From Humisphaera borealis (GTDB lineage Bacteria; Planctomycetota; Phycisphaerae; Tepidisphaerales; Tepidisphaeraceae), in the NCBI RefSeq assembly GCF_015169395.1, contig NZ_CP063458.1, forward strand, positions 4,588,001-4,652,000: a DNA stretch of 64,000 nt, in the 5' to 3' direction. Shown here piece after piece: positions 4,572 through 31,605 of this stretch. A model generated the notes under the pieces. The model did not search any database and was not told where the DNA came from. It saw nothing but the letters and a program-made list of their open reading frames with translations. The stretch's first letter is position 1, and each line of letters opens with the position of its first letter. Made by a program: the position numbers and the translations under genes.

Positions 4572-4643
4572 GCGACGACTTTAACACGCTTGCTTTGCAT
4601 TGCAAAGTGTCTTGAGGAAGAGGCGTGGCTGGCAAACGTTGGT

Positions 4644-10952: not shown

Positions 10953-12116
10953 ATGTTCGGTGAAATACGACAGCTTATCGGCAACTCTGAAGCCTTTCCC
11001 GTTCTGAAGAACTGGACGTTCTTTAACCATGCCGGTGTTTGCCCGCTGCCGGCGGCGGCGGCCGACGCATTCCGTAAGTACGCGGGGCAGGCCGAGGAGC
11101 GGGCTTACCTCTTCACCGGCTGGTATCAGGACATCGAGAAGCTTCGGCACATCGCCGCCGAACTGATCGGCGCTCACCGGGACGAGATCGCGTTCATCAA
11201 GAACACCAGCGAAGGCCTGAGTATCGTCGCCAACGGGATCGACTGGCAGTGGGGCGACCGCATCGTCACGACCGCCGTGGAGTATCCGGCAAACGTCTAT
11301 CCCTGGATGGAGCAGGTACGTAATCGCGGCGTGAAGCTGGTGACAGTGCCGGAGATCGACGACGAGAACGGTCGGCGTTGCGTGCCGGTCGATCGTATCC
11401 TCCAGGAAGCCGCCGATGAGCGCACCCGCATCGTCTCGCTGTCCCACGTCGAATATGCCAGCGGACAACGGCACGATCTGACAAAGATCGGCGAGTTCTG
11501 CCGTGCCAACAACAAGCTGTTCTGCGTCGACGCGATACAGACCGTCGGCGCGCTTCCGGTGGACGTCAAGGCGATGAAGATCGACTACCTCTCGGCCGAC
11601 GGGCACAAGTGGATGCTCGGCCCCGAGGGTGCCGGCATCTTCTACTGCCGCAAAGAACTTATCGAACGCACCCGCCCGATCATGGTCGGCTGGATGAATG
11701 TGGTCGATGCGCAGAACTACGGCGATATCAACTACACCCTGCGTTCGGATGCCCAGCGATTCGAATGCGGGACGTACAACGTTCCGGGGCTGCTTTCGCT
11801 GAAGGCGGCGCTGGAGCTGATTCAAACGGCGCGGCTCGGCCATGTCGCGCAGCGAATCCGTGAATTGACAGATCTGATGATCGAAATGCTTTCCAAGAAG
11901 GGTTATCAGATTGTGTCGCCGCGCGACAAATGGCAGTGGAGCGGCATTGTCAGCTTCACGTCACCGCGTCATGAGCACAAACGCCTTGTCGCCGAGTTGC
12001 GCAAGGAGAAAAAGATCGAGATCGCACTGCGCGAGGGGCGGCTGCGGGCCAGCCCGCACTTCTACAACACGGAAGATCAGGTCGCGCGTTTGGTGGAGGC
12101 GCTCCCCGCGCATTGA
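10953..12116 (+). CDS. Class V aminotransferase / cysteine desulfurase-like PLP enzyme
   Basis: The 387-residue product has the fold-type I PLP layout: NHAGVCPLP near the N-terminus, the cofactor segment FIKNTSEGLSIVANGI (about residues 81-96), Asp-Ala-x-Gln in FCVDAIQTVGALPVD (about 189-203), and the Schiff-base lysine in LSADGHKWMLGPEG (about 211-224). The family includes cysteine desulfurases, isopenicillin-N epimerase-like and kynureninase-like enzymes; the missing cysteine loop near the C-terminus argues against a SufS/IscS desulfurase, so the substrate stays open. It appears monocistronic and meets the convergent 1030-residue gene end to end with a 26-base gap. Confidence 0.88.
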   Translation: MFGEIRQLIGNSEAFPVLKNWTFFNHAGVCPLPAAAADAFRKYAGQAEERAYLFTGWYQDIEKLRHIAAELIGAHRDEIAFIKNTSEGLSIVANGIDWQWGDRIVTTAVEYPANVYPWMEQVRNRGVKLVTVPEIDDENGRRCVPVDRILQEAADERTRIVSLSHVEYASGQRHDLTKIGEFCRANNKLFCVDAIQTVGALPVDVKAMKIDYLSADGHKWMLGPEGAGIFYCRKELIERTRPIMVGWMNVVDAQNYGDINYTLRSDAQRFECGTYNVPGLLSLKAALELIQTARLGHVAQRIRELTDLMIEMLSKKGYQIVSPRDKWQWSGIVSFTSPRHEHKRLVAELRKEKKIEIALREGRLRASPHFYNTEDQVARLVEALPAH

Positions 12117-12142: not shown

Positions 12143-15100
12143 TCATCGGCTGAGAAAGACCAGCGTTCCCTCGGGAAGGTCGCGAACGGCAGCCTCGTCG
12201 ATTGTCCAGGTTTCGCCGTTGTGCGTTGCGACTTTCACCAGCCGAGCCGCCGCCGATGGGAGCGGTGCGGTGACCACCGCAGGGGCTACCGGAAGTGTTG
12301 CCGGCTGAGAAGTCGACACCGGTGGCGGGGCGGGAGGAGCATCAGGAGCAGCACTGGGCAAAGCGCTGTTCGAAACGGCAGGCATCCCGCTCGCCGCGCC
12401 ATCGGGGGGCTTCACTGCAAATGCCGATGTCGCGCTGGCGGTCCCGGCGGCCGTAGCAACCTTCCACTTGCCGGCATCGTCTTTTAGAAGCATCGCTGTT
12501 CCGACGAATGGCGGTTTGAGTCCGGAGAATAGGCTTGCCCGCCTTTCGGCGACCAGCTTTCTTGCCACGTCGCCGCGGGGAATCTTGCCGATGATGGACT
12601 TGAGGCTGTCCATGGTGACGGCCGGCACCGGATTCGTCTGGTCGTACCAGACAATGTTGTCGAGGCGCTGCCGTTCGAGGTCGGCAATCGCCCGGTCGTA
12701 GAGATCTCCGATCGCCCATCCGTCCACGCGTGAGGTGGCGCGAAGCAGATCTCGCAGAAGGATCGCCCGCACGACAGGGTCGATCGCAGTGTTAGCGATC
12801 AGCTTATCCACCTGATCAATTCCCCAGGTGTCCCAGCTACGGTCGTCCACCGTCTTCATCTGCTCTGCCATTTCACGCACGAACAAGGCGTGAGGCAGCA
12901 GCACAGGCTTCTCGCTGACGAGATTCTTCGGCGCCAGGAGCGTAACGGTCTTCTTCCTCGCCAGGTTCTGCGGATCGATCGAGTCGAAGATACATCTTAC
13001 GCGCGTGCCCACGCCCTGCCGCTGCACCGCCGGATCGCCGAGCACGTAGTAGCGGGACTTGTCGTTGACCTCGAGGTAACTCAGCTCCGACATCAACGGC
13101 GACGTCAGGATATCGCCCATTTCCGTCTGCCACGCGTTGGGAATGGACATCGCGGCAGCGGCCTGCTGCAGGTAGTCGATGTACCCTGCCGCGCTCTGTG
13201 GTAACGGAGATTGCGGATTGTCGCCGATGAACTGCCGCAGGGTGTCCAACCGCTGCCGGGCGACCTTTTCGTTCGGCGGTGCGGGTGCGGCGGCGAAGGG
13301 CGTCATCAATGCGGAATACCGGTCGACCGACTCATAAAGGTCGAGCGTCGCTGCGGCCTTCGTGAAGTCGGGGCTCACTGACGATTGTGGGAAACGCGAT
13401 GCAAACTGCTGCAGTGCCTGCCGCGCGGCGGCCACCGACCCGGCGGACTCGTGAATCGCAAGTCGGGCATCATGTTCGTCGCGGGCGCGGCGGATGGCGT
13501 CGCGGATGGCGGCAAGGCGCGGACCGACGGCATCGGCGGCGGCCTTTGCCGCATCGCCGCCCCGGTCGAGTTGCGGGATGATAACGCTCAGGTCCTTCTC
13601 GGCGGCGGCGAGTGCAGCCTCGGCTGTGGCGATGTCACTGGCGCGCGGGGCGACGACCAGTACCCCAGCCTTCTTCGACGCCGCGTCGATCTGCGCGACC
13701 AGCCACGAGGCGTATCGGGCTCGCAGTGACTCACGCTCCTTCTGCAACCGTTCGGCAGCGGCGGCGACCTGATTCCTGGGGTCCATCCGCTTGGCATCCT
13801 GCGGCTTGCCCCAGCTTCCCAATGCCTCGTCGGCCGACAGCGATGCCGTCCACCAGTCGTCGGGGCTTCCGTCGGCCAACGCCTTCGTCGCCTTGTCGGA
13901 TGCAGCCGCGAAGATCGTCGTCATTCCCTTGACCCAGTCGCGATCGCGTTCGACTTGCTCGGCCAGAACCGTGGCCGATTTCTTGGCCGCCGCCACCTGC
14001 GGGTCATTGCTGGCACCGGGTGCGAGTGATTCCTGCTCCGAGACCAGCTGCTTCGCCAGATCGACGTTCCTGTCGGCGACTGCCTTCTCGATGCGGCGAG
14101 CCCATTCCCGGGCGATTCCCTGTTGGGTCTGCCAGTAGAACACCCCGAACGCGAGTGCCAGAAGGGCCGCAATGCCGGCGACGATCGCGATGTTGCGAAA
14201 GCGTGCCGCCTTCGCACGCGCCTTGAGCCGGGCGTCGTAGCGTGCCTGCAATTCTGGCGGAACAGGCTTGGTTCCCAACGCCACGATGGCGTTGTAGGCG
14301 ACCGCCAGATCACGGTCTTTCGCTTCGGCGTTCAAGGCATCGGCCAGCGCGTCGCAGGCGTCGGTGTGGGCTTTTCGGCGAGCGAGCGACTGATTCTGCT
14401 GTTGCACCCATGCGGCGGCGGCGCGGATATCGGCGGCGGCGTCGTCATTCAACGAAGCAACCCCCAGAGTCGCCGACTGGTCCTTGAGCTGCTCGAGCAA
14501 CGCCGAGCAATCCGGCAGCGATTTGGCGGCATATGCCGACCGCAGCTTGCTCAGCAGCTCAGTCACCTGCGACGTTGCCTCGGCTTGCTGGGCCCGGGTG
14601 TCGATCTCGCGCGCCATCGACGCCAGATCCGGTGGAACGGTTTCGTACCACGGCACCTGCAGGACCTCGGCAGCAAGCGATTTGAATGCGGGTACGTCGC
14701 GTTCCTTCGCGGCGACGGCAAAGCCCACGCGCAGTTCCTTGAATCGGGCGGCCTCGAACGTGCGGATGTCCTTCTCCCAGAAGGGGCCGGGATCAGCCGC
14801 GGCCAGTTGCCGCATCACATCCAGTCGATCTGCGAGCGGGCCCTTTGCCAGCGCCAATCGCCGATGGGTCGCGTAAAGCTGTTGGAGGGGCTGGTCCTGG
14901 CCGTAGGCATCGTTGAGCTGCGCCGCCCGGTCCATCTGTAACGGCGGCGGAACGGGCATGTCGTTCCGCTGGCACATCTCGACCCACCCCTCGGCATCGG
15001 GCAGATCAAGCGCCGCGACGAGGTCCAGCAGATTCGGGGGAGCCTCCGCGGCGTGGACCGCCTCGGCGCGAAGGCCGCGCTGCAGCAGCATGGCGCACTG

Positions 15101-15235
15101 CCGAAGACGGTCGTTCGCCGTGGCGCATAGTGACGCATAGGCCGCCGCGGCTTCGCGGACTTCATCGCTGACGACTTGGACCCCCGATGCACGGAAGTCG
15201 CGAAGGAACTCGATGGTTCGTTGATGGTCGCTCAT
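12143..15235 (-). CDS. Large single-pass membrane protein of unknown function, last gene of the Tad/GAP1 operon
   Basis: The 1030-residue protein is alanine-rich and predicted to be almost wholly helical. A soluble N-terminal part (residues 1-342) precedes one transmembrane helix (FRNIAIVAGIAALLALAFGV at about 343-362). Then come long charged helices with coiled-coil character (for example AAAERLQKERESLRARYA around 500). The C-terminal part is more globular (about 700-930), with a Pro/Ala linker and a short terminal segment KVATHNGETWTIDEAAV that looks like a small beta domain. No catalytic motif was found. It begins 23 bases after the GAP1-like gene on the same strand, the tightest spacing in the operon, so translation is probably linked. 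A membrane scaffold for the GTPase/GAP1 pair is a plausible role, but this is inference only. Confidence 0.75.
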   Translation of the reverse strand: MSDHQRTIEFLRDFRASGVQVVSDEVREAAAAYASLCATANDRLRQCAMLLQRGLRAEAVHAAEAPPNLLDLVAALDLPDAEGWVEMCQRNDMPVPPPLQMDRAAQLNDAYGQDQPLQQLYATHRRLALAKGPLADRLDVMRQLAAADPGPFWEKDIRTFEAARFKELRVGFAVAAKERDVPAFKSLAAEVLQVPWYETVPPDLASMAREIDTRAQQAEATSQVTELLSKLRSAYAAKSLPDCSALLEQLKDQSATLGVASLNDDAAADIRAAAAWVQQQNQSLARRKAHTDACDALADALNAEAKDRDLAVAYNAIVALGTKPVPPELQARYDARLKARAKAARFRNIAIVAGIAALLALAFGVFYWQTQQGIAREWARRIEKAVADRNVDLAKQLVSEQESLAPGASNDPQVAAAKKSATVLAEQVERDRDWVKGMTTIFAAASDKATKALADGSPDDWWTASLSADEALGSWGKPQDAKRMDPRNQVAAAAERLQKERESLRARYASWLVAQIDAASKKAGVLVVAPRASDIATAEAALAAAEKDLSVIIPQLDRGGDAAKAAADAVGPRLAAIRDAIRRARDEHDARLAIHESAGSVAAARQALQQFASRFPQSSVSPDFTKAAATLDLYESVDRYSALMTPFAAAPAPPNEKVARQRLDTLRQFIGDNPQSPLPQSAAGYIDYLQQAAAAMSIPNAWQTEMGDILTSPLMSELSYLEVNDKSRYYVLGDPAVQRQGVGTRVRCIFDSIDPQNLARKKTVTLLAPKNLVSEKPVLLPHALFVREMAEQMKTVDDRSWDTWGIDQVDKLIANTAIDPVVRAILLRDLLRATSRVDGWAIGDLYDRAIADLERQRLDNIVWYDQTNPVPAVTMDSLKSIIGKIPRGDVARKLVAERRASLFSGLKPPFVGTAMLLKDDAGKWKVATAAGTASATSAFAVKPPDGAASGMPAVSNSALPSAAPDAPPAPPPVSTSQPATLPVAPAVVTAPLPSAAARLVKVATHNGETWTIDEAAVRDLPEGTLVFLSR

Positions 15236-15258: not shown

Positions 15259-17718
15259 CTAGTGAGAGCTCAGCCGCAGTGTCGCCACACGGAGTCTACC
15301 CGGCAATTCGACGATGATCTGTACATCCTGGAACTGCTCGAAGGCGCGGAAGGTTTCGGCTGCCGCCCGCCGGGCCATTTCCGCCGGCTCTCGCTTGTCC
15401 GTGGCGGCGGCGACTTCAGCGTCCCACAAGTTCCTGGCTTCTTCGATTCTTGCCTTTTCGCCCTTGATTCGCTCTCGCAGTGCCGGCCGGTTTGTAAATC
15501 GGTTAGCCAGTTCGGTATCGGTCAGCTTGAGCTGCGCGACCGCTTCGGCAAGACGTGCCTGCATCGGATCGATCGCCGCCTTCTGCGCTTCCTTCAAACG
15601 GGCGATCTCATGATCGGCCTTGGCGAGTGCCGCCTCGGCGACAGAGACGGCTTTCCTTGCCCCGGCGGTCTGGATGGCAAAGTCGCTGCGGAGGGCACCC
15701 CACCTAGGTCCGACGCGGACTGCGAATTTGGCGGTCTCGCCGCCCAGGCTGTTGGGTCGCTCAAAAAGAAGCACGCCCACATCGGTCTCTCCGGCGACTG
15801 CGGCCCGGGTTGCGGGGCCGGCGGCCCAAGCGAACGTCCACTGGTCGGGCAGGTCGCTATCGGGCTGGCAGATGGCATCCGGCAACGTGGACAACGTCAG
15901 CGGCGTTGTCGATGCCGTCAGGTTTACGTCGATCGGCGTCGGCTGCTTGAATCGGATGGCCTGTGGCCGGCGGTTGGCTGCGTCGGCGATCGTCAGTTCC
16001 GTGTTGTGCAGCAGTACGCGTACCAGCGAGATCACCTCCGGCCGATTGAGCAATGCCTTCATCCGCCAGGCGATCTCCAGTGTTCCGCCGGCCTGGGAGG
16101 TCTCCAGTGAGATGGTTGCGACATCGAGCGGAACGGACTTATTGGCGTCATCGCGCCAGACGAGCTGATACCGGAATCCTCCTGAGGCATCGGCCGTCAG
16201 CACGCCGGCAAGGTCCTTCTGTCGGTACGTGTAAGAGCTGCCGCCCCCGGGAAACGCGATTCTGAACGCCGCGATCGCGGGCAGGTTGTCGAACTGGGCC
16301 GCGGGGATCGAGAACGCCTGCGCCGGCGCTTTGAGCGCTGCGCCGGTCGTCGCCGGCGGTTGCACCTCCGTCGGTAACTGGATCGGGGTGGGAGGAACGA
16401 CCGGCTTTACCGGCACTGGGGTTACGGGAATCGGTTCCACCACAACCGTCTCGGCGGTCGTTGGCGCGGTCGGTGTCGGCGGCACCGGTGGGGCGATCTT
16501 GATCACCGGCTGTGTTACGGGGTCGGGCGTCACCGGCAGGGCGGTGGAATCGGTGTCTTCGTGAGAGGTCGGCGTGCTCGGCCGCTCGGCCGTTGCCTGC
16601 CGGGCGGACATCCGCAGCCAAACGCCGGCAGCGATGAAGATCAGTGCGACGAACGACACACCAATCAGCAGCCACATCCGAGACGATTTCTGGTGATCGA
16701 CCCAGGACGTATCGACACTGCGAGCCGTGCCGGTCGTCGTCCCCCGAACGGACTGGGCCTCGATCTGATCAAAGACCGATGACAACGGCCTGGCGGCGGG
16801 CGTGTCAAACGCTTCGGGCATCAGCTCGAGTGGTTCCACCTCGACTTCAACCGGGGTGGCCGGCTTGGCGCGCGACGGTACCGGCCGTGGCTTCTCCGAT
16901 GGGCCGCTGACGACGGGCGATCGGCCGGATCTTGCCGCATCGACCCACGGCCCGGCCGGAGGTGCACCCAGACCGCCGGAACGCGTCAGGTCGATGACGA
17001 GCCCACCGCCGGCGTGACGGACGGCATCGGCGGCAGCAGGCGTGCCGGCGAGGCAGCATCGCCAGGCACAGATGGCATTGCCGGGCAGCCCCGTGAAGTA
17101 GGTGCTGAACGTGATGTCCCATCTCTTGGACGCCGGCAGGAGCGCGATCGCCTCGGCAATCAGGGGCAGTACGTCATGATCGGGGCCGAAGAGAATACAG
17201 ACAGGCTTTCGCGGCGATTTCAGTCCCGCCTCGGCGAGCACGCCACCCCAGCCGGCGTCGCCCGTCAGTCGCTGCCATGCACTGCAGGGCGCTGGCCGAA
17301 CGTCGCCGATCGGAAGCGGCGAGCGGCGATGGATCGACCCGACCATGCCGTCCCACCGGGATTGCATCGTTCCCGGTCGCGCGATCATCCAGGCCGGCCC
17401 ACCGGCCGCTCGCTCGGTCGCTTCGATCGCGATGTGATGAGCGAAAGAGTTGGTCCGCTGCGTGTAGTCGAGCCCCGAATCGCAGATCCGCGACAACGTG
17501 CTGATCTCACGCCCTTGCACCTGTAGCAGCCAGTGCGCCCACGTCACCGGGTTGCGGCCGCCGCTGCCGGTGGTGAACTCGTGGCGGTAACCGCTGACCG
17601 ATTCGAGCCTGTCCCACAGCGGGCGCGGAATGCCATCGGTTGTCGCAACGGTGCAGAAGCCCCGTTGTCCCGGCCGAAGGCCTTCTGGGGCGGAGGTGTA
17701 GTAGATCTCGTGGCTCAT
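15259..17718 (-). CDS. GAP1-like GTPase-associated protein with transmembrane helix
   Basis: The N-terminal region (about residues 3-150) reads IYYTSAPEGLRPGQRGF, with DYTQRTNSFAHHI around residue 85-97. These match the conserved YTSxxxGL...G and D-x-x-x-R-x-N-x-x-AH signature of GAP1 N-terminal domains. A second block ASKRWDITFSTYFTGLPG (about 192-209) matches the GAP1 middle domain. Both were defined in proteins encoded beside small GTPases in NTPase-dependent conflict systems. A transmembrane helix (LLIGVSFVALIFIAAGVWL, about 351-369) follows a Pro-rich linker, then a Pro/Thr-rich stretch and a C-terminal domain ending in a coiled coil. The start is set at MSHEIYYTS; the frame extends 38 codons further through an inverted repeat. 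The GTPase gene is directly upstream. The role is presumably control of, or signalling from, that GTPase at the membrane. Confidence 0.75.
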   Translation of the reverse strand: MSHEIYYTSAPEGLRPGQRGFCTVATTDGIPRPLWDRLESVSGYRHEFTTGSGGRNPVTWAHWLLQVQGREISTLSRICDSGLDYTQRTNSFAHHIAIEATERAAGGPAWMIARPGTMQSRWDGMVGSIHRRSPLPIGDVRPAPCSAWQRLTGDAGWGGVLAEAGLKSPRKPVCILFGPDHDVLPLIAEAIALLPASKRWDITFSTYFTGLPGNAICAWRCCLAGTPAAADAVRHAGGGLVIDLTRSGGLGAPPAGPWVDAARSGRSPVVSGPSEKPRPVPSRAKPATPVEVEVEPLELMPEAFDTPAARPLSSVFDQIEAQSVRGTTTGTARSVDTSWVDHQKSSRMWLLIGVSFVALIFIAAGVWLRMSARQATAERPSTPTSHEDTDSTALPVTPDPVTQPVIKIAPPVPPTPTAPTTAETVVVEPIPVTPVPVKPVVPPTPIQLPTEVQPPATTGAALKAPAQAFSIPAAQFDNLPAIAAFRIAFPGGGSSYTYRQKDLAGVLTADASGGFRYQLVWRDDANKSVPLDVATISLETSQAGGTLEIAWRMKALLNRPEVISLVRVLLHNTELTIADAANRRPQAIRFKQPTPIDVNLTASTTPLTLSTLPDAICQPDSDLPDQWTFAWAAGPATRAAVAGETDVGVLLFERPNSLGGETAKFAVRVGPRWGALRSDFAIQTAGARKAVSVAEAALAKADHEIARLKEAQKAAIDPMQARLAEAVAQLKLTDTELANRFTNRPALRERIKGEKARIEEARNLWDAEVAAATDKREPAEMARRAAAETFRAFEQFQDVQIIVELPGRLRVATLRLSSH

Positions 17719-17726
17719 TGGTCTCG

Positions 17727-17817
17727 AGTAGGCAGTACGCAGTACGCAGAGAAGAGACGTTGCGGTTCGAACTCGCCTCTTTCCTAACTGCGTACTGCTT
17801 ACTGCGTACTGCCTACT
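17727..17817. repeat. Inverted repeat with GCAGTAC-word arms
   Basis: Left arm 17727-17749 repeats AGTACGC with an 8-base period; right arm 17788-17817 is the imperfect reverse complement, again with tandem words (CTGCGTACTGC twice). It fills the spacer between the GTPase and GAP1-like genes and overlaps the GTPase stop codon. Confidence 0.8.
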
Positions 17818-19114
17818 TTCCCTTGGCCCCATGAATCAGGCCCTGCGTCCAGCGTGCATAGGCGTACAGGATCGGTACCGTCACCCAGCGGGGATGGATG
17901 TCTTTGGGCCGCACCACCAGGCCGCCAGCCTCGGGGTTCTTCTGCGGCGAAACGCCCAGGGCACTGACCGGGATGTAGAGAACCTCTTCGCAGAAGTCCT
18001 CGGCGGTGGTGACGATTTCGGGAGAGACGTCGAGCAACAACTGGCGGACCAGCGTCGACACGCGCTCCACATGTTCCATGTCCACCGCAGACAGCGGCGA
18101 GCCAGCGGCGGGCGGTAGAACGGGTTCCTTCGTCAGATCGGCCTGAACCAGCGGTGCCCAGACGTCACTTTTGGCGACCAGTACCAGCAGCGGCGCGTTG
18201 TGCCGCTGATACGTTGACAGGCCCGTATGCTTCCGCACCCGCTGGGCCGCTTCACTCAGGATGCTTTCCTGCCGGATCGTATGCAGAGGCTCGACAACCT
18301 GCGGGTCCCTGGAGATCGGCCGGCACTTCTCGCGGAAGCGCGGGTCCTGTGTCGGATCGAACAGGAACATCAGCACTTTGGCCTTCGACAAGTGCCGCGT
18401 AACCGGGGAGACGGCCGTATCCTGCCCGACCGCGTAATGCTCGCCTGCGTTGTCGTAAAGGCAGACGATGTTGCCGGCGCGACGGCGGTGCTTCTCCCAC
18501 GGATGCCCGGCTGCCGGGTGCATGCTGAACAGGAACGGCTTGGGCACCTGCACTTCCTGTCCGTTCAGGCGGACCGAGCGATAAAGATCTCCCTGCGTAC
18601 GGGTCTTCTCCAGCACGGTCAACCGCTCGGGGTCGTCCGGCAGGAACAGCAGCTCCTCGTAGCGGTTCAAGGCCCAGTTGGATTCCTTGTCGGCGTCGGC
18701 GAACGTAATCGCGAACTGCCGGGCCAGCACGCGGCGCAGCTCCCAGGTCATCGCCGCCAGGAAGTTGGACTTCCCGCTGCCCACGCTGCCGACCAGCGAG
18801 AAGAACGTGATCGGGTTCTCCAGCAGCAGCCTCGGGATGACCAGATGACACTCGGGGCAGGCGAGCGTGCGGCAGACCATCTCACGCGCATCGATCGCCG
18901 AGCCGTCGAGCGTAAACCGCGTCGGCAGGAAGCGGATCGGCTCATCTTTGACGATCGGGTCGCCGACAAGTTCCTCGTGTTCGGACACCCAAAGGACCTC
19001 CTCCGGCTTGAACGTCCGCCAGCAGTGCGGGCAGACAACCTTGCGGACGAGGGGGTTGCCGTCGTCCTTCGAGGGCAGGCGTTTGGAGGATGGCGAAGCG
19101 ATGTCGGCGGTCAC
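17813..19114 (-). CDS. GTPase with zinc ribbon, GAP1 partner type
   Basis: The 433-residue product has two Cys pairs (CPHC at about residue 28 and CPEC at about 88) forming a probable zinc ribbon. Then comes a P-loop GSVGSGKSNF (about 108-117), a Walker B/G3-like LYDNAGE (about 216-222) and a G4-like LLVLVAKSDVW (about 310-320). The P-loop followed by D-x-AGE is the pattern of the GTPases that accompany GAP1 proteins in NTPase conflict systems (DO-GTPase type in domain nomenclature). It would be cytosolic. Its stop is 94 bases ahead of the GAP1-like start, with a hairpin element between. The initiation codon is GTG; upstream GGAGATCC is a modest ribosome site. Confidence 0.78.
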   Translation of the reverse strand: MTADIASPSSKRLPSKDDGNPLVRKVVCPHCWRTFKPEEVLWVSEHEELVGDPIVKDEPIRFLPTRFTLDGSAIDAREMVCRTLACPECHLVIPRLLLENPITFFSLVGSVGSGKSNFLAAMTWELRRVLARQFAITFADADKESNWALNRYEELLFLPDDPERLTVLEKTRTQGDLYRSVRLNGQEVQVPKPFLFSMHPAAGHPWEKHRRRAGNIVCLYDNAGEHYAVGQDTAVSPVTRHLSKAKVLMFLFDPTQDPRFREKCRPISRDPQVVEPLHTIRQESILSEAAQRVRKHTGLSTYQRHNAPLLVLVAKSDVWAPLVQADLTKEPVLPPAAGSPLSAVDMEHVERVSTLVRQLLLDVSPEIVTTAEDFCEEVLYIPVSALGVSPQKNPEAGGLVVRPKDIHPRWVTVPILYAYARWTQGLIHGAKGK

Positions 19115-19288: not shown

Positions 19289-20515
19289 TCACCCAATCAG
19301 TCCTTCAACGCTTCCCGCCGGCTTCCAGGTTCGCTGGTCGATCGATACCTGGTGCAGGCGTGAGAACTGGCCCTGTCGGCTCATCCGTTGCAACGTGGCG
19401 ACATCGAACGGGCCGCTGGTCTGGTTTCGCAAACGGATGAAGTAACGTTCGTTGCCGGTCGTCACCTGCATGCCACCAGAAGGTGCCTGCGGTGCAGACC
19501 CCAGACCGACGGACACAGATCCCAATGGCCGGTTCGGCGCGGCCGGCGGGGGCCTTGCACCGAACCTTGGCGCAGCCGGGGCGCTCATGGGTGCGTTGAC
19601 GGTCGGCGGCAGCGGGCCGGGAGCCATGGGGGGAGTATCGACCGACGAGCTCTCGCCCGCGCTTGCCAGGTCAGTCAGAAGATCGGTCGTGGACGCATAT
19701 CGCGCGTTGATCGGCTTGGCGATCAGCCTGGCGATGATCTGGCCGAGGCGCTCGGGGAAGCCCCGGACTACTTCGTGTGCTGGTGCGGGAACGGTGGGCA
19801 TCGAATGGTGCCACGCCTGCCACTTGGCCGGGTTCACCGACCGCAGGTCTCCGCCGCTCTCGGCGACCGCAGGAAACTGCTGGCGGTGCAGCTTGGCGCC
19901 CAGCGCCATCTCGTAGGCGATGTGCCCCAGGGCATACAAGTCGGTCGAAGGACCCGGCTTGCCGGACTCGGACGTGACCAGCTCCGGGCCTGCGTAGCGG
20001 ACGGACTCGGCCGAAAGCATGGGCTCGGCCGTCGGTGGGGCGGCCAGGCCGAACTCTGATACCTTAAAGTGCCGTCCGCCGTCGAACACGAGGATGCTGG
20101 TCGGCGACAGCCGATTGTGCAGACGCAGAGGTTGCAGGGCGTGCAACGCCGCAACGCCACGCGCGACTTGTTCGATCATCCGCAGCACATCGGCCGACGC
20201 CGCCGGAGCCTGGCCCAGAAGCTGTTCGAGCGTCGCAGCCGGACGTTCCATCGCGATCCAGGGGACGCCATCGGTCAGGCCCATGCCGTAGAACGTGACG
20301 ACGTGCGGGTGAGATGCGAGGGACGCAAGGATGCGGACTTCTTCGACAAACCGCGACTCGCCCGAGGGATCGGCCTTGGAGAGAGCCGGGAGGACTTTCA
20401 CCCGCACCGGTCGCGTGACCCCGCCGTGCAGCTTCTCGTCGCCATCATAAAGCGTCCCGCCGGGGCCGGTGGCGAGTTGGTCGGTGAGGGTGAATCGGTC
20501 GAACTGCTTTTTCAT
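19289..20515 (-). CDS. Ser/Thr pseudokinase fused to a GYF-like domain
   Basis: The 408-residue protein has a protein-kinase fold in residues about 8-270. The ATP-anchoring lysine is kept (RVKVLP), but key catalytic residues are changed. The HRDLKPxN loop reads HNRLSPTSI, losing both Asp and Asn, and DFG reads EFG. AGPEL corresponds to the APE motif. It is therefore probably a pseudokinase. After a Pro-rich linker (PMAPGPLPPTVNAPM) the last 50 residues (YFIRLRNQTSGPFDVATLQR) form a GYF_2/DUF4339-like domain, a module that binds proline-rich peptides. The start at 20515 is preferred because the frame before it runs through a repeat element. Its neighbours are an FHA protein and a GTPase, suggesting an adaptor rather than an enzyme. 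Confidence 0.82.
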   Translation of the reverse strand: MKKQFDRFTLTDQLATGPGGTLYDGDEKLHGGVTRPVRVKVLPALSKADPSGESRFVEEVRILASLASHPHVVTFYGMGLTDGVPWIAMERPAATLEQLLGQAPAASADVLRMIEQVARGVAALHALQPLRLHNRLSPTSILVFDGGRHFKVSEFGLAAPPTAEPMLSAESVRYAGPELVTSESGKPGPSTDLYALGHIAYEMALGAKLHRQQFPAVAESGGDLRSVNPAKWQAWHHSMPTVPAPAHEVVRGFPERLGQIIARLIAKPINARYASTTDLLTDLASAGESSSVDTPPMAPGPLPPTVNAPMSAPAAPRFGARPPPAAPNRPLGSVSVGLGSAPQAPSGGMQVTTGNERYFIRLRNQTSGPFDVATLQRMSRQGQFSRLHQVSIDQRTWKPAGSVEGLIG

Positions 20516-20551
20516 TAGATTGCGATGCCTGGATCGGTAAACATCGACATC

Positions 20552-20642
20552 GGGTGGCATTGGGCAAGCGTACTCGCTTGCCCGTGTCGAACGTCGGATG
20601 GCGCTCGTCATGGGCAACGGGGTACCATTGCCCATGCCACCC
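20552..20642. repeat. Two-hairpin element, family A copy 1
   Basis: A 91-base element bounded by GGGTGGCA and TGCCACCC. It contains a perfect hairpin GGGCAAGCG-TACT-CGCTTGCCC and a second hairpin GGGCAAC...GTTGCCC. Near-identical copies are at 50475-50564 and 62243-62332. It lies in the spacer between the FHA-TM and pseudokinase genes. Confidence 0.9.
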
Positions 20643-20649
20643 GGACGGG

Positions 20650-21441
20650 TCACATTCTCTTCAGAATACCACCCTTGTTCTGTTTCGACGCAAATGCCAG
20701 TCTTCGATTCACAAACTGCGCCAACGCCGCCGCCAGCTGGTCATCCGACGGCTGGGTGGCGGGCTGCTTGGGGTTGGGCCGAAGCAAGGCGGTCAACTGC
20801 TTGCCGTCGGGGTCTCTACCGGCCAGTTCGAGTGCTTTGAGGTTCTTTTCGGTAGTGGACAGCACGATCTGCATGCGGAGCCAAAGCTTGGCGGCGTTTT
20901 CGTAGTCGTGGGTCTGTTCCAGGCGCCAGACGCGGTCGAACAGGTCGACGGCTTCACGCGGGACGCGGCCCTTGGTGGCCTGCTTCTCCAACCAGGGGGC
21001 GAGGATGCGGTGGGCATTGTCCCAGTCGTCAACGGACGAGCCGGAACCTTCGAACTCGCCGGAATAGAACACTGCCGCCACGGCTAGTGACAGCATGACG
21101 CTTAGCAGCAACCCGAGGAACGCCCGACTGGAGAACAAGCCCCCGCCGCCCGGTGGCTCCAGCCGCACGATGCAGTCTCCGGACAGGCGGATCTTGTCGC
21201 GCGGGCGAAGGCGTACCCGCCCGGCGACCTTGGTATCGCCGACCCAGGTGCCCAGGGCCGATAGGTTCTCGATGAAGTAGTCGTCGCCTTCGCGGGTGAG
21301 GACGGCGTGTTCCCAGGAAACGTCCTCGGGCGAGAGCTTGACCGCCGCCTTCTGTCCCCGGCCGATGACGTGCGACCCCGGCGGGACAGGGAAGGTCTGT
21401 CCTTTCTCGGGGCCGGAGATGACGTTGATGACGAGGTCCAT
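20650..21441 (-). CDS. FHA-domain membrane protein
   Basis: The 263-residue product has an N-terminal FHA domain (residues about 5-95) with the phosphothreonine-binding signature HVIGRG, then SWEHAVL and ENLSALGTWVG, corresponding to the GR, SxxH and NG(S/T) loops. A transmembrane helix follows (FLGLLLSVMLSLAVAAVFY, about 108-126). The rest is a helical domain with TPR-like flavour (RVWRLEQTHDYENAAKLWLR). The protein would present a phosphopeptide reader in the cytosol. Since the adjacent kinase homologue lacks catalytic residues, its phospho-ligand would have to come from another kinase. It lies between tadC and the pseudokinase on the same strand. Confidence 0.88.
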   Translation of the reverse strand: MDLVINVISGPEKGQTFPVPPGSHVIGRGQKAAVKLSPEDVSWEHAVLTREGDDYFIENLSALGTWVGDTKVAGRVRLRPRDKIRLSGDCIVRLEPPGGGGLFSSRAFLGLLLSVMLSLAVAAVFYSGEFEGSGSSVDDWDNAHRILAPWLEKQATKGRVPREAVDLFDRVWRLEQTHDYENAAKLWLRMQIVLSTTEKNLKALELAGRDPDGKQLTALLRPNPKQPATQPSDDQLAAALAQFVNRRLAFASKQNKGGILKRM

Positions 21442-21448
21442 GGGAGTT

Positions 21449-21598
21449 AATGACGAATGGCGTAATCCGAATGGCGAATGAAGTCAGAATGTTAAATGAC
21501 GAATGGAGGCGTACGCCGAACTGCTTTCGATTTAGTTTTGAATATTGAACATTCACTCGTCATTCGAGTTTCGCCATTCGTCATTCCCACTCGTCATT
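21449..21598. repeat. Inverted repeat with GACGAATGG-word arms, copy 1
   Basis: Left arm 21449-21484 (AATGACGAATGGCG, then GAATGGCGAATGAAG) and right arm 21555-21598 (CGTCATTCGAG, CGCCATTCGTCATTC) are imperfect reverse complements. It fills the spacer between tadC and the FHA-TM gene and overlaps the tadC stop codon. Confidence 0.8.
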
Positions 21599-22532
21599 TC
21601 AGTTGAAATCCTCCCTGCAGAAACCGCACGAGCATCGGCCCGAACAGCAGGATGACCGCCGCCACCAGGACGAGCGTGGAGGGGATCATCACCATCACGC
21701 CCGCCGCGCCGGCCTTGCTCTGCGCCTGCAGCACGCGCTCGGCGGCCATCCGGTCGGCCTGGCGTTCGAGCGTGTCGGCCAGCGGCCATCCTAACTCTTC
21801 CGACTGCACAATGCTGTCGGCGAGCGCGTTGATGTCAGGGCTGGGGACGCGGTCGGCCCATCGCCGCAGGGCCTCGACCCGGGGCGAGCCCATATCGATC
21901 TCGGCCAGCACCTGCCCGAGTTCGTCGCCGACGGGATGATCGGCATAGTCTTTAACCACGCGCTGCAAAGCCACGTTGAGCGAGGTTCCCGATCGCAGGA
22001 TGAGCACGATCAGGTCCAGCACGTAGGGCATCGACCGGACGATGCGCAGTTCTCTTGCTTCGGCCTTGCTCTTGAGGCTCGAGACCATCACCAGGAAACC
22101 CGCCGGCAGAAAGCCGATCCCGAGCAGGGCGAACTGCGGCCCGAAGACAACGGCCGCAGAAAAGCCCGAGAAGACGGCCATCACGATGCCCAGGACGACG
22201 CCAAGCGAGAGCAGTTCGTCGTCATCCAGCCCGCCGGGATAACCGGCGCGGGCGTAGGGAGCGCGAACGTACTTTCGAAGCGCCGGCAGCCCGAGCCGCG
22301 AGATGAAGGTGGCCGGTATCCGCAGCCAGGCGAGCAGAATGGTAATGCCCGGCGAATCCTGCATCGCCCGGCGGCGCATCTCGCTGCGGCGCATCGACGG
22401 GTCGACGTTGGCGTTGGACGCCGACCCGTCCGATTGCAGCGATCGATACCCCGCAAAGCCAAGCAATGCCGCCGCCATGCCGAAGCAGAGCGACGAGATG
22501 AGCTTGACGAGGGTGGGGTCGAGAGAGTCCAT
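21594..22532 (-). CDS. tadC: Type II secretion F-domain platform protein, TadC-like
   Basis: The 312-residue product has an N-terminal helix, then the T2SSF domain. In it VRSMPYVLDLIVLILRSGTS and ALQRVVKDYADHPVGDEL form the conserved cytoplasmic helical region, followed by LGWPLADTLERQADRMAAER and two C-terminal transmembrane helices. This is the layout of TadC, the smaller of the two inner-membrane platform proteins that work with the TadA ATPase in Flp/Tad pilus assembly. The start is placed at MDSLDPTLV; the frame extends through the upstream repeat. It directly follows tadB in the same orientation. Confidence 0.9.
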   Translation of the reverse strand: MDSLDPTLVKLISSLCFGMAAALLGFAGYRSLQSDGSASNANVDPSMRRSEMRRRAMQDSPGITILLAWLRIPATFISRLGLPALRKYVRAPYARAGYPGGLDDDELLSLGVVLGIVMAVFSGFSAAVVFGPQFALLGIGFLPAGFLVMVSSLKSKAEARELRIVRSMPYVLDLIVLILRSGTSLNVALQRVVKDYADHPVGDELGQVLAEIDMGSPRVEALRRWADRVPSPDINALADSIVQSEELGWPLADTLERQADRMAAERVLQAQSKAGAAGVMVMIPSTLVLVAAVILLFGPMLVRFLQGGFQLK

Positions 22533-22538
22533 CGGGGT

Positions 22539-22682
22539 AATGACGATTGACGACATTCGAATGGCGAATGAACGTCCAATGATCAAATCTCAAACTGACT
22601 TGGCGTTGGTGATCACCTTTCGTTCATTGATATTTCGAGTTTGGAGCTTCATTCGCCATTCGGGCTTCGGCGTTCGTCATTT
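22539..22682. repeat. Inverted repeat with GACGAATGG-type arms, copy 2
   Basis: Left arm 22539-22595 starts AATGACGATTGACGACATTC and the right arm 22605-22682 ends GGCGTTCGTCATT. The pairing is imperfect but extends for more than 50 bases. It lies in the spacer between tadB and tadC and is related to the element at 21449-21598. Confidence 0.75.
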
Positions 22683-22698: not shown

Positions 22699-23538
22699 TC
22701 AAATTTCCGCGTGCGTGATCTTCCCCGCAAAGAAGATCCCTGCCGCGATGAACACACCGGCGACCATCAGCACGGCGTAGCCTTGCGACGTGGTGAAGAG
22801 CATCTTCACGCCTTCGGCGTCAGCCGTGGACATCATCAGCAGCAGGATCACCGGGGCTACCAGCAGCACCTTGATGTTGGTGCGCCCCTCGGCCGTGTGC
22901 GCTTCGACCGTCTGCCGCATGTGGTGCAGTTTGTCGAGAGAGCGTGAGATTCGGCTGAGTGTCTCGGCGGCGTCGCCGCCCATCTCTCGGTTGACCAATA
23001 GCGCCGAAGCGAACAGGTTGAAGTTCTGCGACTTCAGCCGGTCGCGGGCTTCGTCGATGGTCACCTCGATCCCTGCGCCGAACGAGTACCGATTAGCCAT
23101 GATGCGGAACTCAGTCCGGATCGGTTCGGGCGCATTTTCTGACAGCCGCTGGATGGCCTGCACCAGCGTTAACCCGGCCCGCAGGCTGTTGGCGAGCGAG
23201 GAGATCGCCGGAGGCAACTGCAAATCGATCTGCCGTCGGCGTTTCTGCCACATGGATTCGACGATGATCTTCGGAACTGCCAGCAGGATGAGCCAGAAGA
23301 CGACGCCGAACAGCGGGTTTGGCGTAATGAAGACGAGCACCAGCAGCAGCAGGATAAATGCGACGTAGTAGTAGATGGTCCATCGCTTGGCATCGACCGG
23401 TTCAGGGTTGAACCGCTGGCGGTTCCGGGCGATCCAGTCGGCGTCGCGCTGGAATCGGCGCGTGAGATAACCCCGCAGCCCCCAGACGAGGAGGACGATC
23501 GAGAGGCCGATGAGTGCTGCGATGCCTAACGCTTTCAT
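22699..23538 (-). CDS. tadB: Type II secretion F-domain platform protein, TadB-like
   Basis: The 279-residue product has one N-terminal helix (GIAALIGLSIVLLVWGL) and a pair around residues 55-90. The T2SSF core reads LPPAISSLANSLRAGLTLVQ...LSENAPEPI...FNLFASALLVNREMGGDAAETL, and a C-terminal membrane region follows. This is the usual TadB arrangement. TadB and TadC together form the inner-membrane platform. The start MKALGIAAL is taken; thirteen extra codons upstream are not family-like. Confidence 0.9.
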   Translation of the reverse strand: MKALGIAALIGLSIVLLVWGLRGYLTRRFQRDADWIARNRQRFNPEPVDAKRWTIYYYVAFILLLLVLVFITPNPLFGVVFWLILLAVPKIIVESMWQKRRRQIDLQLPPAISSLANSLRAGLTLVQAIQRLSENAPEPIRTEFRIMANRYSFGAGIEVTIDEARDRLKSQNFNLFASALLVNREMGGDAAETLSRISRSLDKLHHMRQTVEAHTAEGRTNIKVLLVAPVILLLMMSTADAEGVKMLFTTSQGYAVLMVAGVFIAAGIFFAGKITHAEI

Positions 23539-23567
23539 TTCAATACCGCTTTCGGCGGGCGAAGAGC

Positions 23568-23710
23568 GGATCACCACGGAGGCACGGAGACACGGAGGGT
23601 CACTCGGCGATCATCAAGTGGCGCGCTCCCAACCTGTCATTCGGAGTACCTCAGGATGACAAGTGAGGACGCCGTTTGCCGAGCGAGCCTCCGTGCCTCG
23701 GTGGTGATCC
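23568..23710. repeat. Inverted repeat with GGAGGCACGGAG arms
   Basis: Left arm 23568-23608 (GGATCACCACGGAGGCACGG...) pairs with the right arm 23678-23710 (...TCCGTGCCTCGGTGGTGATCC). A second smaller hairpin sits inside at 23634-23662 (TGTCATTCGGAG / CAGGATGACA). It occupies the spacer between tadA and tadB. Confidence 0.85.
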
Positions 23711-23720
23711 CTTTCTTTCT

Positions 23721-25604
23721 TCATACCTTCACCTGATCAAACCATGGCCGCAATTGCAGGTGTCCCTGATCGACCATTTCTCCGAGAAACGTCGGCATGT
23801 ACCCGGTCGGACGGAGCTCGAGGGTATTGCCGACGTGGGCCACCTTAAGGATGTCGCGGGTTTCCAGTTCGCCGGTCACCGGGTGCAGGCCGGTGACCTC
23901 GGTGAGCTGGCAGACCAGCCGCCGGCCGTCGGGCATGCGTTCGGTGTGGATGATCAGGTGAATCGCCGACGCGATCTGTCGTCGGACGGCGGCCAGCGGG
24001 ATGTCGGCACCCATCAGGACCATCGTTTCCAGGCGAGACAGCGCGTCGGCGGCACTGTTGGCGTGAAGGGTGGTCATCGAACCACGGTGGCCGGTGTTCA
24101 TGCCCTGCAGCATGTCGATCGCTTCGTTGCCGCGGACTTCGCCGACGATGATGCGATCCGGCCGCATGCGCAGCGCGTTCTTCACCAAGTCGCGAATGGT
24201 GTATTCGCCGGTGCCCTCGGCATTGGCCGGCTTGGTTTCCAGCGTGACGACGTGCTCCTGCTGCAGTCGCAACTCGGCGGAGTCTTCGACGGTAATCAAA
24301 CGATCAGCGCCTGGAATGAAGCCGCTCAGCACGTTCAGCAGCGTCGTTTTGCCGCTGGAGGTGCCGCCTGACACCAGGATGTTGCACCGGTGCAGCACGC
24401 ACGCCCGCAGCAGTGTTACGGTGAACGGCTGGAGCGACCGCCAGCGGACGAGGTCATCGGCACTGACGTGCGAGACGGGAAACTTGCGGATAGTGACGCA
24501 GGGCCCTTTGACGGCCAGGGGCTCGATGATCGCGTTGACGCGCGAGCCGTCGCGCAGCCGAGCGTCCACCAGCGGTTGAGAGCGGTCGATCCGGCGGCCG
24601 AGCGGCGCGACAATGCGCTCGATGATCGTTACGCACGCCGCTTCGGACGGGAACGTCTGCGGGGCCTTAGTGATGCGCCCGTTCCGCTCGACGTAGATGC
24701 GCGTCGGGCTGACCACCATGATTTCGGTGATGCTCTGCGATCGCAGCAGGTCTTCCAGCGGCCCGAGGCCGAAGACCACGTCATACAGCACCTTCTTGAG
24801 ATAGCTCGTGATGATGTAGGTGCGGGCGTTGTCCAGCAGCTCGGCGGCAACGGGACCGACGACGCCGTCGAAGCGGGCTTCGACCATCTGCTCTGCGGTC
24901 ACGGCGGACGTCTTATTCTCGACGATGCCGACCTTGGCCGACAGCCGCTTGATCGCATCGGTCGCCGAACGTTCCAGTTCGGAGCTGATGCCGACGGCGG
25001 CCCAACCGGTCGTCGTGCGTTGCTCGCGGCCGAGGTGGGTGAAGACCCAATCGAGCATGCGGGCGCGTAGCGCGCGGGCGAGGATGATCGGGGGCAGGTC
25101 GGACTCGAACACCCGCGATTTGAACTCGCCGGACAGCAGGTCGTCGAGCACCGAATTGAGCTTTTCGGTCCGTTCGCCGGCGGCGCCGTTGGAGGAGAAC
25201 GAACCCAGTCGAAGATCAAGCCGGCGGAGCAGCTCGGCGTGCAGCGCATTCTGCACCTCCGTCAGCCGGTCGCTCGCCGATTCCTGCTGCTGGGCTTCTG
25301 GAGAAGCTTCGGCGGCGTCGAGCGCGAGCACGAACTCCATGAGCCGCAGTCGGGCTGTGCCGCGAACCACGACCTTCTGACCGGCGGCATACTCCTGGCC
25401 GTCGATCTCGACGGGGTTCACGCCGGGCAACAACTCTATTTCCCATGCCCCATCATTGCGCTCTACGCGTGCGTGCACGCCGGCGATGAAGCGCGACTCC
25501 AGCCGCACGTCACAGGTGGGATCGCGGCCGATCAGAAAACCGGCCGGGCCGTCGACGGCGACCCACTGTCGGTTGGTGAGGGTGTTTTGAACGACGACGC
25601 GCAT
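23721..25604 (-). CDS. tadA: Tad/CpaF secretion ATPase with N-terminal FHA domain
   Basis: The 627-residue protein starts with an FHA-like domain (residues about 1-90: AGFLIGRDPTCDVRLESRF, then VHARVERNDG), which is not part of ordinary TadA/CpaF. The C-terminal half is the secretion ATPase: LGPLEDLLRSQSITEIMV (about 285-302), Walker A GGTSSGKTTLL (about 414), Walker B RPDRIIVGEVRG, and the His box TGHRGSMTTLHANS. It powers assembly or export through TadB/TadC. The ATG at 25604 is used; the longer frame runs back through a hairpin element. The FHA fusion suggests that motor activity is tied to phosphorylated partners, for which FHA and kinase-like genes lie downstream in the same operon. Confidence 0.93.
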   Translation of the reverse strand: MRVVVQNTLTNRQWVAVDGPAGFLIGRDPTCDVRLESRFIAGVHARVERNDGAWEIELLPGVNPVEIDGQEYAAGQKVVVRGTARLRLMEFVLALDAAEASPEAQQQESASDRLTEVQNALHAELLRRLDLRLGSFSSNGAAGERTEKLNSVLDDLLSGEFKSRVFESDLPPIILARALRARMLDWVFTHLGREQRTTTGWAAVGISSELERSATDAIKRLSAKVGIVENKTSAVTAEQMVEARFDGVVGPVAAELLDNARTYIITSYLKKVLYDVVFGLGPLEDLLRSQSITEIMVVSPTRIYVERNGRITKAPQTFPSEAACVTIIERIVAPLGRRIDRSQPLVDARLRDGSRVNAIIEPLAVKGPCVTIRKFPVSHVSADDLVRWRSLQPFTVTLLRACVLHRCNILVSGGTSSGKTTLLNVLSGFIPGADRLITVEDSAELRLQQEHVVTLETKPANAEGTGEYTIRDLVKNALRMRPDRIIVGEVRGNEAIDMLQGMNTGHRGSMTTLHANSAADALSRLETMVLMGADIPLAAVRRQIASAIHLIIHTERMPDGRRLVCQLTEVTGLHPVTGELETRDILKVAHVGNTLELRPTGYMPTFLGEMVDQGHLQLRPWFDQVKV

Positions 25605-25619
25605 GGGGAAGTCATCGCG

Positions 25620-25685
25620 GCATGGGCATGTACCCATGCCCGTGTGGTCGGACGAAGACACGGGCATGACTACATGCCCATGCCA
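25620..25685. repeat. Two-hairpin element, CATGCCC variant
   Basis: Two perfect short hairpins, GGGCATG-TACC-CATGCCC and GGGCATG-ACTA-CATGCCC, are set as mirror copies around a 10-base centre flanked by GTGT / ACAC. It has the same design as family A but a different stem sequence. It lies in the spacer between cpaB and tadA. Confidence 0.85.
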
Positions 25686-25698
25686 CAAAACGATCACC

Positions 25699-26463
25699 TC
25701 ACGGAAGAGGCGTCGGTGGCGGACACAGTAACAACGTAATCGGCAACTGCCCGCTGCCGCCTCCGGTCTGTTCCAGGATCGTCTTGGCCTGGGCCTCGCT
25801 TACGTCCAGCGTCACAGTCTGCTGTGATGTCGATTCGCCCGCCCCCTGATACTGCTCGGCTGCGGTCAGCTGCGAGCGCGAGCGGGAGAGCCGCTGATTG
25901 ACGGCGATCACGCGGAAAGCCTGCGGGCTGACGATGACGGTCTCGTAGGTCGCTTCTGTCGGCGTTTCGACCTCGGTACCGGCCGGAAGTGTCGCCGGCC
26001 GGGCGGCGGGCTTCGGACGGGTGACGAGGACCTTCACATAGTCCCCGGGGATCAGCAGCCCGCCGAGCGCGCTCGATCCCTTCACCTGAATCGAAAGGGC
26101 CCGGCTGTCGCCGCGAAGTTCCAGCGTGGCGGCGGCCGCCAGGTCGGCGAGAAGGACTGGTGTGCCTGCAAGAATGTCGCGGTTGATCCTCTGGCCTTTG
26201 TAGGATGCCTTCAGCTCCGGCGTCAGGCCGCGGGACTTGAGCTCGACCAGCTTCGCGGGGATCTCCAACTCGACAAAGTCCTTCTCCGGATCGAGCAGCG
26301 CCCCCGATCGCAGATCGCGCTTCGCGACCAGGATGACCGACTTGGGGCCGCGGTCCTGCGACGCGCCCGTCTCCAGGTAGACGAACGCCGCCACCATGGC
26401 TACCACACCCAGGAGAACGGAACTCAGCAGAAAGACACGGCTGTTTGATCGCGATTCTGCCAC
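25699..26463 (-). CDS. cpaB: Flp pilus assembly protein CpaB/RcpC-like
   Basis: The 254-residue product has an N-terminal transmembrane helix (VFLLSSVLLGVVAMVAAFVY) and then an SAF/CpaB domain: SVILVAKRDLRSGALLDPE, GQRINRDILAGTPVLLADL and ALSIQVKGSSALGGLLIPGDYVKV. In Tad systems CpaB/RcpC is a periplasmic protein acting with the secretin channel. It is the first gene of the minus-strand Tad/GAP1 operon; a divergent MFS transporter lies upstream. The GTG at 26463 is chosen because GGAGG lies four bases ahead; a GTG seven codons earlier is also in frame. No secretin (CpaC/RcpA) gene accompanies it here. Confidence 0.87.
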   Translation of the reverse strand: MAESRSNSRVFLLSSVLLGVVAMVAAFVYLETGASQDRGPKSVILVAKRDLRSGALLDPEKDFVELEIPAKLVELKSRGLTPELKASYKGQRINRDILAGTPVLLADLAAAATLELRGDSRALSIQVKGSSALGGLLIPGDYVKVLVTRPKPAARPATLPAGTEVETPTEATYETVIVSPQAFRVIAVNQRLSRSRSQLTAAEQYQGAGESTSQQTVTLDVSEAQAKTILEQTGGGSGQLPITLLLCPPPTPLP

Positions 26464-26778
26464 AGGTCCTCCGTCGATCGCCACGTCGGTTTTTGGGAAC
26501 GGTGAGAATGCTGGGTGTCGGCGTTCTGCCGTTCACCTTGGGGATGACACGATTCAAGCCCGGTCGTACCCGCTGCCAAACCCACACGGAATCCCGCTGC
26601 AACTCCGTGCGCGGATTGTGCGCAGGAAAGGGTGTGCGAGCAAGAGACCGTTCAGCCCGTCTTGAATCAAGTCGTATACGCCGTACCCACGATGGCGGAG
26701 TGACGACCGGAATCCTGCCGATCGCGACAGAGTCAGAACCTCGCGAAATGCTGCTTGCCCGACCCTGACTTCCCGACC

Positions 26779-31121: not shown

Positions 31122-31605
31122 CACACCGACCTCCTTCCAAGGGGGTGAAAAAACGCGGTAACCGGATTGACGCTTCGTTAAGGGGCAAGCACAGACACCG
31201 GACCTGGTTGGGAGTCCGGACGCGCTTCCCTTCTCGGGTGACAGACATTTAGGCGGTGCCTATATCTCGATCAATACAAAAATCGGCGATCGATGCCTAA
31301 ATTTCGCGCTGACACTTCCATCCCCTAGGTCGGTCGTAAAGGTATAGGGGTTAACCGGTCTGGGCCGGAAAACCCCGTTTATTAGTCGATATCGCAATTT
31401 CCGGCAGCGCGCTTGGAATGGAATGCTCCAGAAGTCGTGCCCCATACACCTTTTGGGGATGGGTAGTCTCCCGATCCTTTGCAAACTCCTGTGGAGAGAT
31501 GGGGGGAGTTTGTCGGAATTATCGCGAGCCAAACATCTGTAGAAAATTGCGCTCGCCTGTCGTGGACGAGCGGCGGCGTGACACAGTCTGCTGAGCTTTA
31601 CGGCA
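31122..31605. other. Long upstream region of the first beta-helix gene
   Basis: This 484-base gap between the two paralogous genes holds no credible coding sequence. On the minus strand it provides the leader of the downstream gene, including a CCGGAC...GTCCGG hairpin near 31200-31225 and the strong ribosome site at 31129-31136. No terminator with a U-run was found for the upstream paralogue. Confidence 0.5.

Follow-up and report, generated by a model that had tools for sequence, protein, structure and literature searches.

A zinc-ribbon GTPase and its GAP1 partner lie in a Tad-type gene run of Humisphaera borealis and may control the encoded machine

A GTPase-GAP1 pair built into a Tad-type locus

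A 64,000-nucleotide stretch of the Humisphaera borealis genome (GCF_015169395.1, NZ_CP063458.1, positions 4,588,001-4,652,000; hereafter the window, with coordinates counted from its first letter) carries a DO-GTPase/GAP1-N2 pair and a previously undescribed third protein, P3, built into a Tad-type locus, and this combination is what is new here. We somewhat favor the view that the GTPase and GAP1 form a membrane-tethered GTP switch controlling a Tad-type pilus or secretion machine, pilus control being deduced from gene linkage. The proposal is supported by a tight co-directional run of genes, by a gene order kept across genera, and by the rest of the Tad set lying after P3 in a relative. The three proteins are encoded as follows:

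17813..19114, minus strand: GTPase, zinc-ribbon TRAFAC-type, relative of DO-GTPase2, 433 amino acids (motifs, alignment, Pfam matches of relatives)
15259..17718, minus strand: GAP1, 819 amino acids, with GAP1-N2 and GAP1-M domains, transmembrane helix 350-368, Pro-rich linker, and a beta-rich and coiled-coil tail (Pfam, transmembrane prediction, AlphaFold model)
12143..15235, minus strand: P3, 1030 amino acids, with helical domain 1-345, transmembrane helix 349-367, a long helical region and a mixed C-terminus (transmembrane prediction and model; without Pfam match)

The original prediction, made from the letters alone, had placed a GTPase/GAP1 pair inside a pilus-type operon. Both open reading frames are present there, and the operon is borne out by Pfam and NCBIfam matches to TadA, TadB, TadC and CpaB.

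The GTPase carries the features expected of DO-GTPase2: a P-loop, a Glu in Walker B, a KxD motif and a zinc ribbon. Its P-loop (GSVGSGKS), DNAGE and AKSD motifs and its split zinc ribbon CxxC...CxxC (C28, C31, C86, C89) were all found as predicted, and an alignment of 14 GTPases shows no variation at their key residues. In the profile search, the window protein stays below the Pfam cut-off for DO-GTPase2 (PF19993; 4.8e-4, 20.3 bits vs. 27), but relatives that align over nearly the whole GTPase pass it (L146 with 32.5, L112 with 27.8 and L132 with 27.7 bits), and 11 of the 14 aligned GTPases match the family at E <= 1e-3. Against PDB sequences, the GTPase profile gave weak matches only, the best being GTPase Der (E 0.093). 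Scanning for relatives, with one genome per species, yielded 471 stretches that encode one, and the loci analyzed here are the best 80 of the 471. The P-loop, DNAGE and CxxC...CxxC patterns occur in 80/80 loci; for DNAGE the count is biased, as this motif formed part of one of the patterns (two in all) used in the scan. The window genome holds one GTPase of the DO-GTPase2-like kind and one GAP1-N2.

The GAP1 reading frame is open from 17832 and the family match begins at the ATG at 17718 (MSHEIYYTSAPEGL), which is likely the true start. Profile matches to GAP1-N2 (residues 1-123; 3e-22, 79.6 bits) and GAP1-M (residues 146-246; 1.1e-14, 54.9 bits) are past the cut-off of 24 bits for each family, as the original prediction would have it. 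The motifs it had listed are there too, as DYTQRTNSFAH (D-x-x-x-R-x-N-x-x-AH) and RWDITFSTY (RW-x-x-TFSTY); the N-terminal YTS...GL is also present, but reads YTSAPEGL (YTSxxxGL) and so exceeds the proposed YTSxxGL by one residue. There is no GAP1-C domain in the protein at E <= 1, so we call it a GAP1-N2/M variant and not a full three-domain GAP1. GAP1-C also found no match in the window genome, a weak result alone, as the same search matched no control genome.

A single transmembrane segment is predicted at residues 350-368, followed by a Pro-rich linker of low confidence, in agreement with the helix and Pro-rich tail first described. The AlphaFold model has high confidence at residues 21-270 and low confidence on both flanks of the segment. 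Flanking charges (0 before the helix, +2 after it) do not settle the orientation; we assume that the tail is outside because GAP1-N/M should meet the soluble GTPase. A membrane-anchored GAP1 beside a secretion motor had been called unusual. The anchor itself is in fact common, being found in 41/59 complete GAP1 relatives; the 18/59 without a helix are the GAP1 proteins of the Lentisphaerota clade and, as the 18th, that of L081. What stands out instead is the setting: a gene order with Tad genes that is kept in other genera, P3 as part of the core, and related triads beside other type IV filament machinery. GAP1-N2 matches occur in 74 of the 298 genomes of a class sample.

P3 has a net charge of +5 ahead of its transmembrane helix. 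None of the 31 members of its alignment matched Pfam at E <= 1e-3, and a fold search found no PDB match at E <= 1e-3; the rows returned by VIA-align reflect merely common helical arrangements and were rejected as a fold assignment. GAP1 is matched in 73 of the 80 GTPase loci and P3 in 55; some of the loci where one or the other is missing lie on short contigs. We regard P3 as the third core partner of GTPase-GAP1, and GTPase-GAP1-P3 as a general triad of planctomycetes and Lentisphaerota, which enlarges the core from two proteins to three across both.

The run and its second half

The run spans 26484 to 12143 and consists of nine genes that point the same way, separated by no more than 174 bases or overlapping by 4, in the order CpaB, FHA-TadA, TadB, TadC, FHA protein with transmembrane helix, kinase-GYF, GTPase, GAP1 and P3. 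The six that precede the triad are:

25699..26484, minus strand: CpaB/RcpC (SAF and RcpC), first gene of the run (Pfam RcpC 3.3e-14; NCBIfam pilus_cpaB above cut-off)
23721..25697, minus strand: FHA-TadA/CpaF ATPase, the motor (T2SSE 4.6e-59; FHA 2.2e-7)
22699..23577, minus strand: TadB-like platform protein (T2SSF 4.6e-16)
21594..22586, minus strand: TadC-like platform protein (T2SSF 3.4e-17)
20650..21441, minus strand: FHA domain protein with one transmembrane helix (107-125) and a C-terminal part (FHA 4.2e-11; transmembrane prediction)
19289..20653, minus strand: kinase-GYF, a protein kinase fold with C-terminal GYF_2 (Pkinase 1.4e-17; GYF_2 1.4e-6)

The run is flanked by oppositely directed genes, an MFS transporter from 26755 and an aminotransferase at 10953-12116. 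A scan for promoters and terminators was uninformative, with 0 promoter-like sites and no more terminator-like sites than chance would give. The kinase-GYF of the window has HNR for HRD and EFG for DFG (HNRLSPTS, SEFG), where the kinases of its two closest run relatives read HQDLKPAN or HQDIKPAN, and TDFS. Judging from these motifs, the window protein is probably inactive, apparently a lineage-specific pseudokinase, while the relatives' copies look active.

The two nearest GTPases (64-65% identical) carry the same run in Phycisphaerales genomes of other genera. In one of these loci (L075) all nine genes are present in the order seen in the window; the other (L074) shows seven, from TadA to GAP1, its contig beginning just before TadA and stopping in GAP1. 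Their FHA-TadA copies are 62-64% identical to that of the window. A quick tree built from the window GTPase and those of 79 loci (80 in all) unites the window protein with those of L074 and L075 in a single clade, with a support of 100 in the Shimodaira-Hasegawa-like approximate likelihood ratio test (SH-aLRT). A likely further member is L049, whose closest GAP1 and P3 matches are in the Tad-linked clade and whose short contig shows GAP1 and P3 only. Another candidate (G145) has a related GTPase (59%, query residues 5-140) at a contig end with no Tad-looking open reading frames upstream, and was not counted. In L074, a small two-gene insertion (4010-4590) separates TadC from the FHA gene; it is putatively a BrnT/BrnA-type toxin-antitoxin pair.

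After P3, the L075 contig (continued in L073) encodes a second TadA, a Flp-like pilin of 75 residues (Pfam 1.5e-4, under the cut-off), a prepilin peptidase (Peptidase_A24, 2.3e-14), TadE, a TadG-like gene and one small open reading frame. The window genome has the same block in the same order at ~5.191-5.198 Mb (L170, 5760-12626), ~0.6 Mb from the window half: TadA2, a Flp-like pilin (17.5 bits vs. a cut-off of 32.2), prepilin peptidase, TadE and TadG-like genes. Its TadA2 is 64% identical over 43-405, other TadA relatives reaching 41-43%. The window thus carries half of a Tad-type locus whose two parts lie together in the relative with L075. A different Tad-like set of the window genome, with TadE, secretin and TadA, lies at 6.43 Mb.

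The triad in other loci

Neighbors downstream of P3 were counted over the 47 loci that leave 1.5 kb or more beyond it. A GYF gene without ATPase follows in 15, a GYF-T2SSE ATPase in 5, a PilM-like gene in 10 and a second TadA in 1 (L075), and an ExbB-like gene lies within 4 kb in 14, in overlap with the GYF cases. A sixth GYF-T2SSE case (L105) is cut by the contig end and lies outside the 47. The PilM assignment comes from a profile of 9 sequences, which matches Myxococcus PilM (2.6e-20); the gene after the PilM-like one resembles PilO (7e-4). The PilM group and the GYF-PilB group are each a single clade (SH-aLRT 100 and 100), and hence reflect few evolutionary events and not many independent ones.

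Because T2SSE genes are common in the host bacteria (59/59 sampled genomes, ~2.6 per Mb vs. 9 in 1.115 Mb of locus DNA), their density is by itself of modest weight; more telling are the strict adjacency and the conserved order. When 40 loci of the class sample were checked for neighboring ATPases, 3 had one of T2SSE type: L041 and L045, which are the Tad runs (on the same contigs as L075 and L074, respectively, each counted once), and L060, where it sits at the far edge of the stretch. FHA is fused to the GTPase in 19/80 loci, all except L089 within the Lentisphaerota clade, and it stands beside the GTPase in the window run, so that FHA input recurs by fusion or as a neighbor.

Among the ExbB-like neighbors, one member matches Pfam MotA_ExbB (1.1e-9), and a PDB search gave no match. 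In many triads, such as those of L089 (10739-12885) and L097 (18615-21209), the GYF gene is followed by the ExbB-like gene, a small membrane protein and a third gene, a set which hints that the partner may be an ion-driven machine; the small protein is ExbD-looking from its N-terminus, but has no ExbD family match.

Comparison with known systems

In the text of the founding paper (eLife 2020, 9:e52696, PMC7159879; figures and source data apart), GAP1-N2 systems are described as conflict systems with FNIII partners and transmembrane-bearing GAP1, and with GYF genes in planctomycetes. The link of GAP1 families to multicellular bacteria, raised in the original prediction, is published there for GAP1-N2 systems. 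With the DO-GTPase2/GAP1-N2 systems of that text, the window shares GAP1-N2, GAP1-M, a zinc-ribbon GTPase, the Walker B Glu, a GTPase upstream of GAP1, a transmembrane helix placed C-terminally on GAP1, GYF nearby and a planctomycete host. In contrast to them, it has no GAP1-C, FNIII protein or effector, and has P3, a Tad operon and an FHA motor instead: no FN3 match was found in the nine run proteins at E <= 1, and none of them matches an effector family (Pfam at E <= 1, NCBIfam). Pilus, pili, Tad and type II secretion are terms that do not occur in the same text, and a GTPase/GAP1-Tad link is absent from the available portions of PMC7159879, PMC8460266, PMC12075869 and PMC12019362. Searching the open-access literature by title and abstract start, with subscription papers and preprints outside the search, returned no report of it, and the link seems to be unreported in that literature.

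The Myxococcus Kil Tad-like apparatus, as presented in the accessible part of PMC8460266, likewise has FHA fused to its TadA/CpaF motor, further FHA proteins, Tad genes spread over two clusters and upstream signaling that is not known. However, no GTPase is named in its clusters in that part, and it has a single ATPase, whereas the window set has two TadA-family ATPases. FHA-armed CpaF is a described class (class III, FHA-CpaF; PMC12019362, section 10), with which the window shares an FHA domain on the motor N-terminus; according to the section available, the class is mostly betaproteobacterial, whereas the motor here belongs to a planctomycete and shares its run with genes for a GTPase, GAP1 and a kinase.

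A further likeness is with type VI secretion, whose assembly, in the portion of PMC5995506 available, is activated by a kinase pathway and repressed by TagF through Fha binding. The control by this threonine phosphorylation pathway (TPP) and TagF shares with the window a kinase, an FHA protein and a cytosolic regulator, but the target machine here is Tad and not type VI secretion. Foldseek placed six TagF chains (three entries) at ranks 2, 5, 9, 10, 11 and 13 for the GAP1 model, with probabilities of 0.97, 0.89 and 0.72-0.77 and E-values of 5e-3 to 0.08, and no match of any kind at E <= 1e-3. An identity of GAP1 with TagF by sequence was rejected: hhalign gave probabilities of 0.04% and 0.16% against 30 planctomycete TagF, and the GAP1 profile finds no PDB TagF at E <= 10. 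TagF_N has no match in the window genome. The VIA-align list for GAP1 is filled by the C-terminal coiled coil (679-795), so that GAP1-N/M was barely tested by it. A TagF-like fold of GAP1, suggested by the model, is a weak lead.

Proposed function and alternatives

In the mechanism that we propose, the soluble zinc-ribbon GTPase would dock on the cytosolic GAP1-N2/M domain, and GAP1 together with P3 as a membrane scaffold would keep it at the inner membrane next to the TadB/TadC platform. The FHA domains of the motor and of the small membrane protein would read threonine phosphorylation placed by the kinase of the run; the window kinase, apparently dead, may act as a scaffold, or a different kinase may serve. 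Signals at the extracytoplasmic parts of GAP1 and P3 would set the nucleotide state of the GTPase, and this state would permit or block motor assembly or engagement. By analogy, such switch logic would resemble the kinase/Fha/TagF control of type VI secretion.

Several observations weigh against this proposal. The published view of these proteins (PMC7159879, in its main text) is that of a conflict system. The Tad-linked form is one clade, comprising the window and 2 of the 80 loci, possibly with L049; the remaining 78 loci have no Tad run, most relatives being away from Tad genes, and 8 of the 47 loci show none of the scored neighbors after P3. The window kinase has lost its catalytic residues. 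Finally, no secretin lies near either Tad half, 7 being found elsewhere in the window genome, for which reason we speak of a Tad-type set and not of a complete Tad locus.

The pair could instead be a conflict (anti-invader) system that sits beside Tad by chance or for co-regulation, its extracytoplasmic parts sensing invaders and an effector acting at the membrane. The published classification and multicellular-habit link speak for it, as do the GYF genes reported with planctomycete GAP1-N2 systems (PMC7159879, text portion) and present here too. We consider it unlikely, given nine run proteins devoid of effector domains and FNIII, an order with Tad genes that is kept in other genera, and related triads that adjoin PilM/PilO and PilB-type genes. 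A phage-borne system finds no support in a tblastn search of GAP1 against a phage collection, where no record matched, a result of little weight for or against. Less probable still is a triad that serves the machine structurally or positions it (e.g. for polar placement, much as MglA-type or FlhF-type GTPases position other machines) and is not an on/off switch. In P3 and GAP1 alike, long helical or coiled-coil parts follow a single predicted transmembrane helix, and P3 accompanies the pair in over half of the loci (see above); the FHA and kinase genes of the run, however, point to signaling.

Compatible with the switch that we favor, and in itself somewhat improbable, is the notion that GAP1 is a true GTPase-activating protein, the two proteins working as a simple timer. 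The genes are closely coupled and co-distributed, as the GAP1 counts above indicate, and the conserved DNAGE has a Glu where many GTPases carry a catalytic Gln, so help from a partner is conceivable. Yet the reading of the name as an activator does not hold: GAP1 stands for 'GTPase-associated protein 1', not GTPase-activating protein, and activation is not implied. Nor does the model show a known fold of such activators, Foldseek giving nothing at E <= 1e-3.

A broader version of the switch is a tentative possibility: in planctomycetes and Lentisphaerota, GTPase-GAP1-P3 might be a portable control module, operated by GTP, that serves several type IV filament-type machines (Tad, PilB/GspE-type and PilM/PilO-type), receives FHA/kinase input and includes a TagF-like gatekeeper; conflict roles elsewhere would then be derived or parallel. 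If true, a type VI-style post-translational license would have been grafted onto pili. The role of DO-GTPase/GAP1 pairs has so far been a proposed one; in the Tad-operon version, pilus extension, retraction and adhesion can be measured as an output, and their function thereby becomes testable. That version may also explain how FHA-armed Tad motors, such as that of the predatory Kil system, are controlled.

Other features of the window

Two large adjacent PKD-domain proteins, one with a right-handed beta-helix match, are encoded on the minus strand at 28362-34197. The protein encoded at 40249-41619 has many RTX repeats of the calcium-binding kind (HemolysinCabind 2e-28) as well as a PepSY-like stretch.

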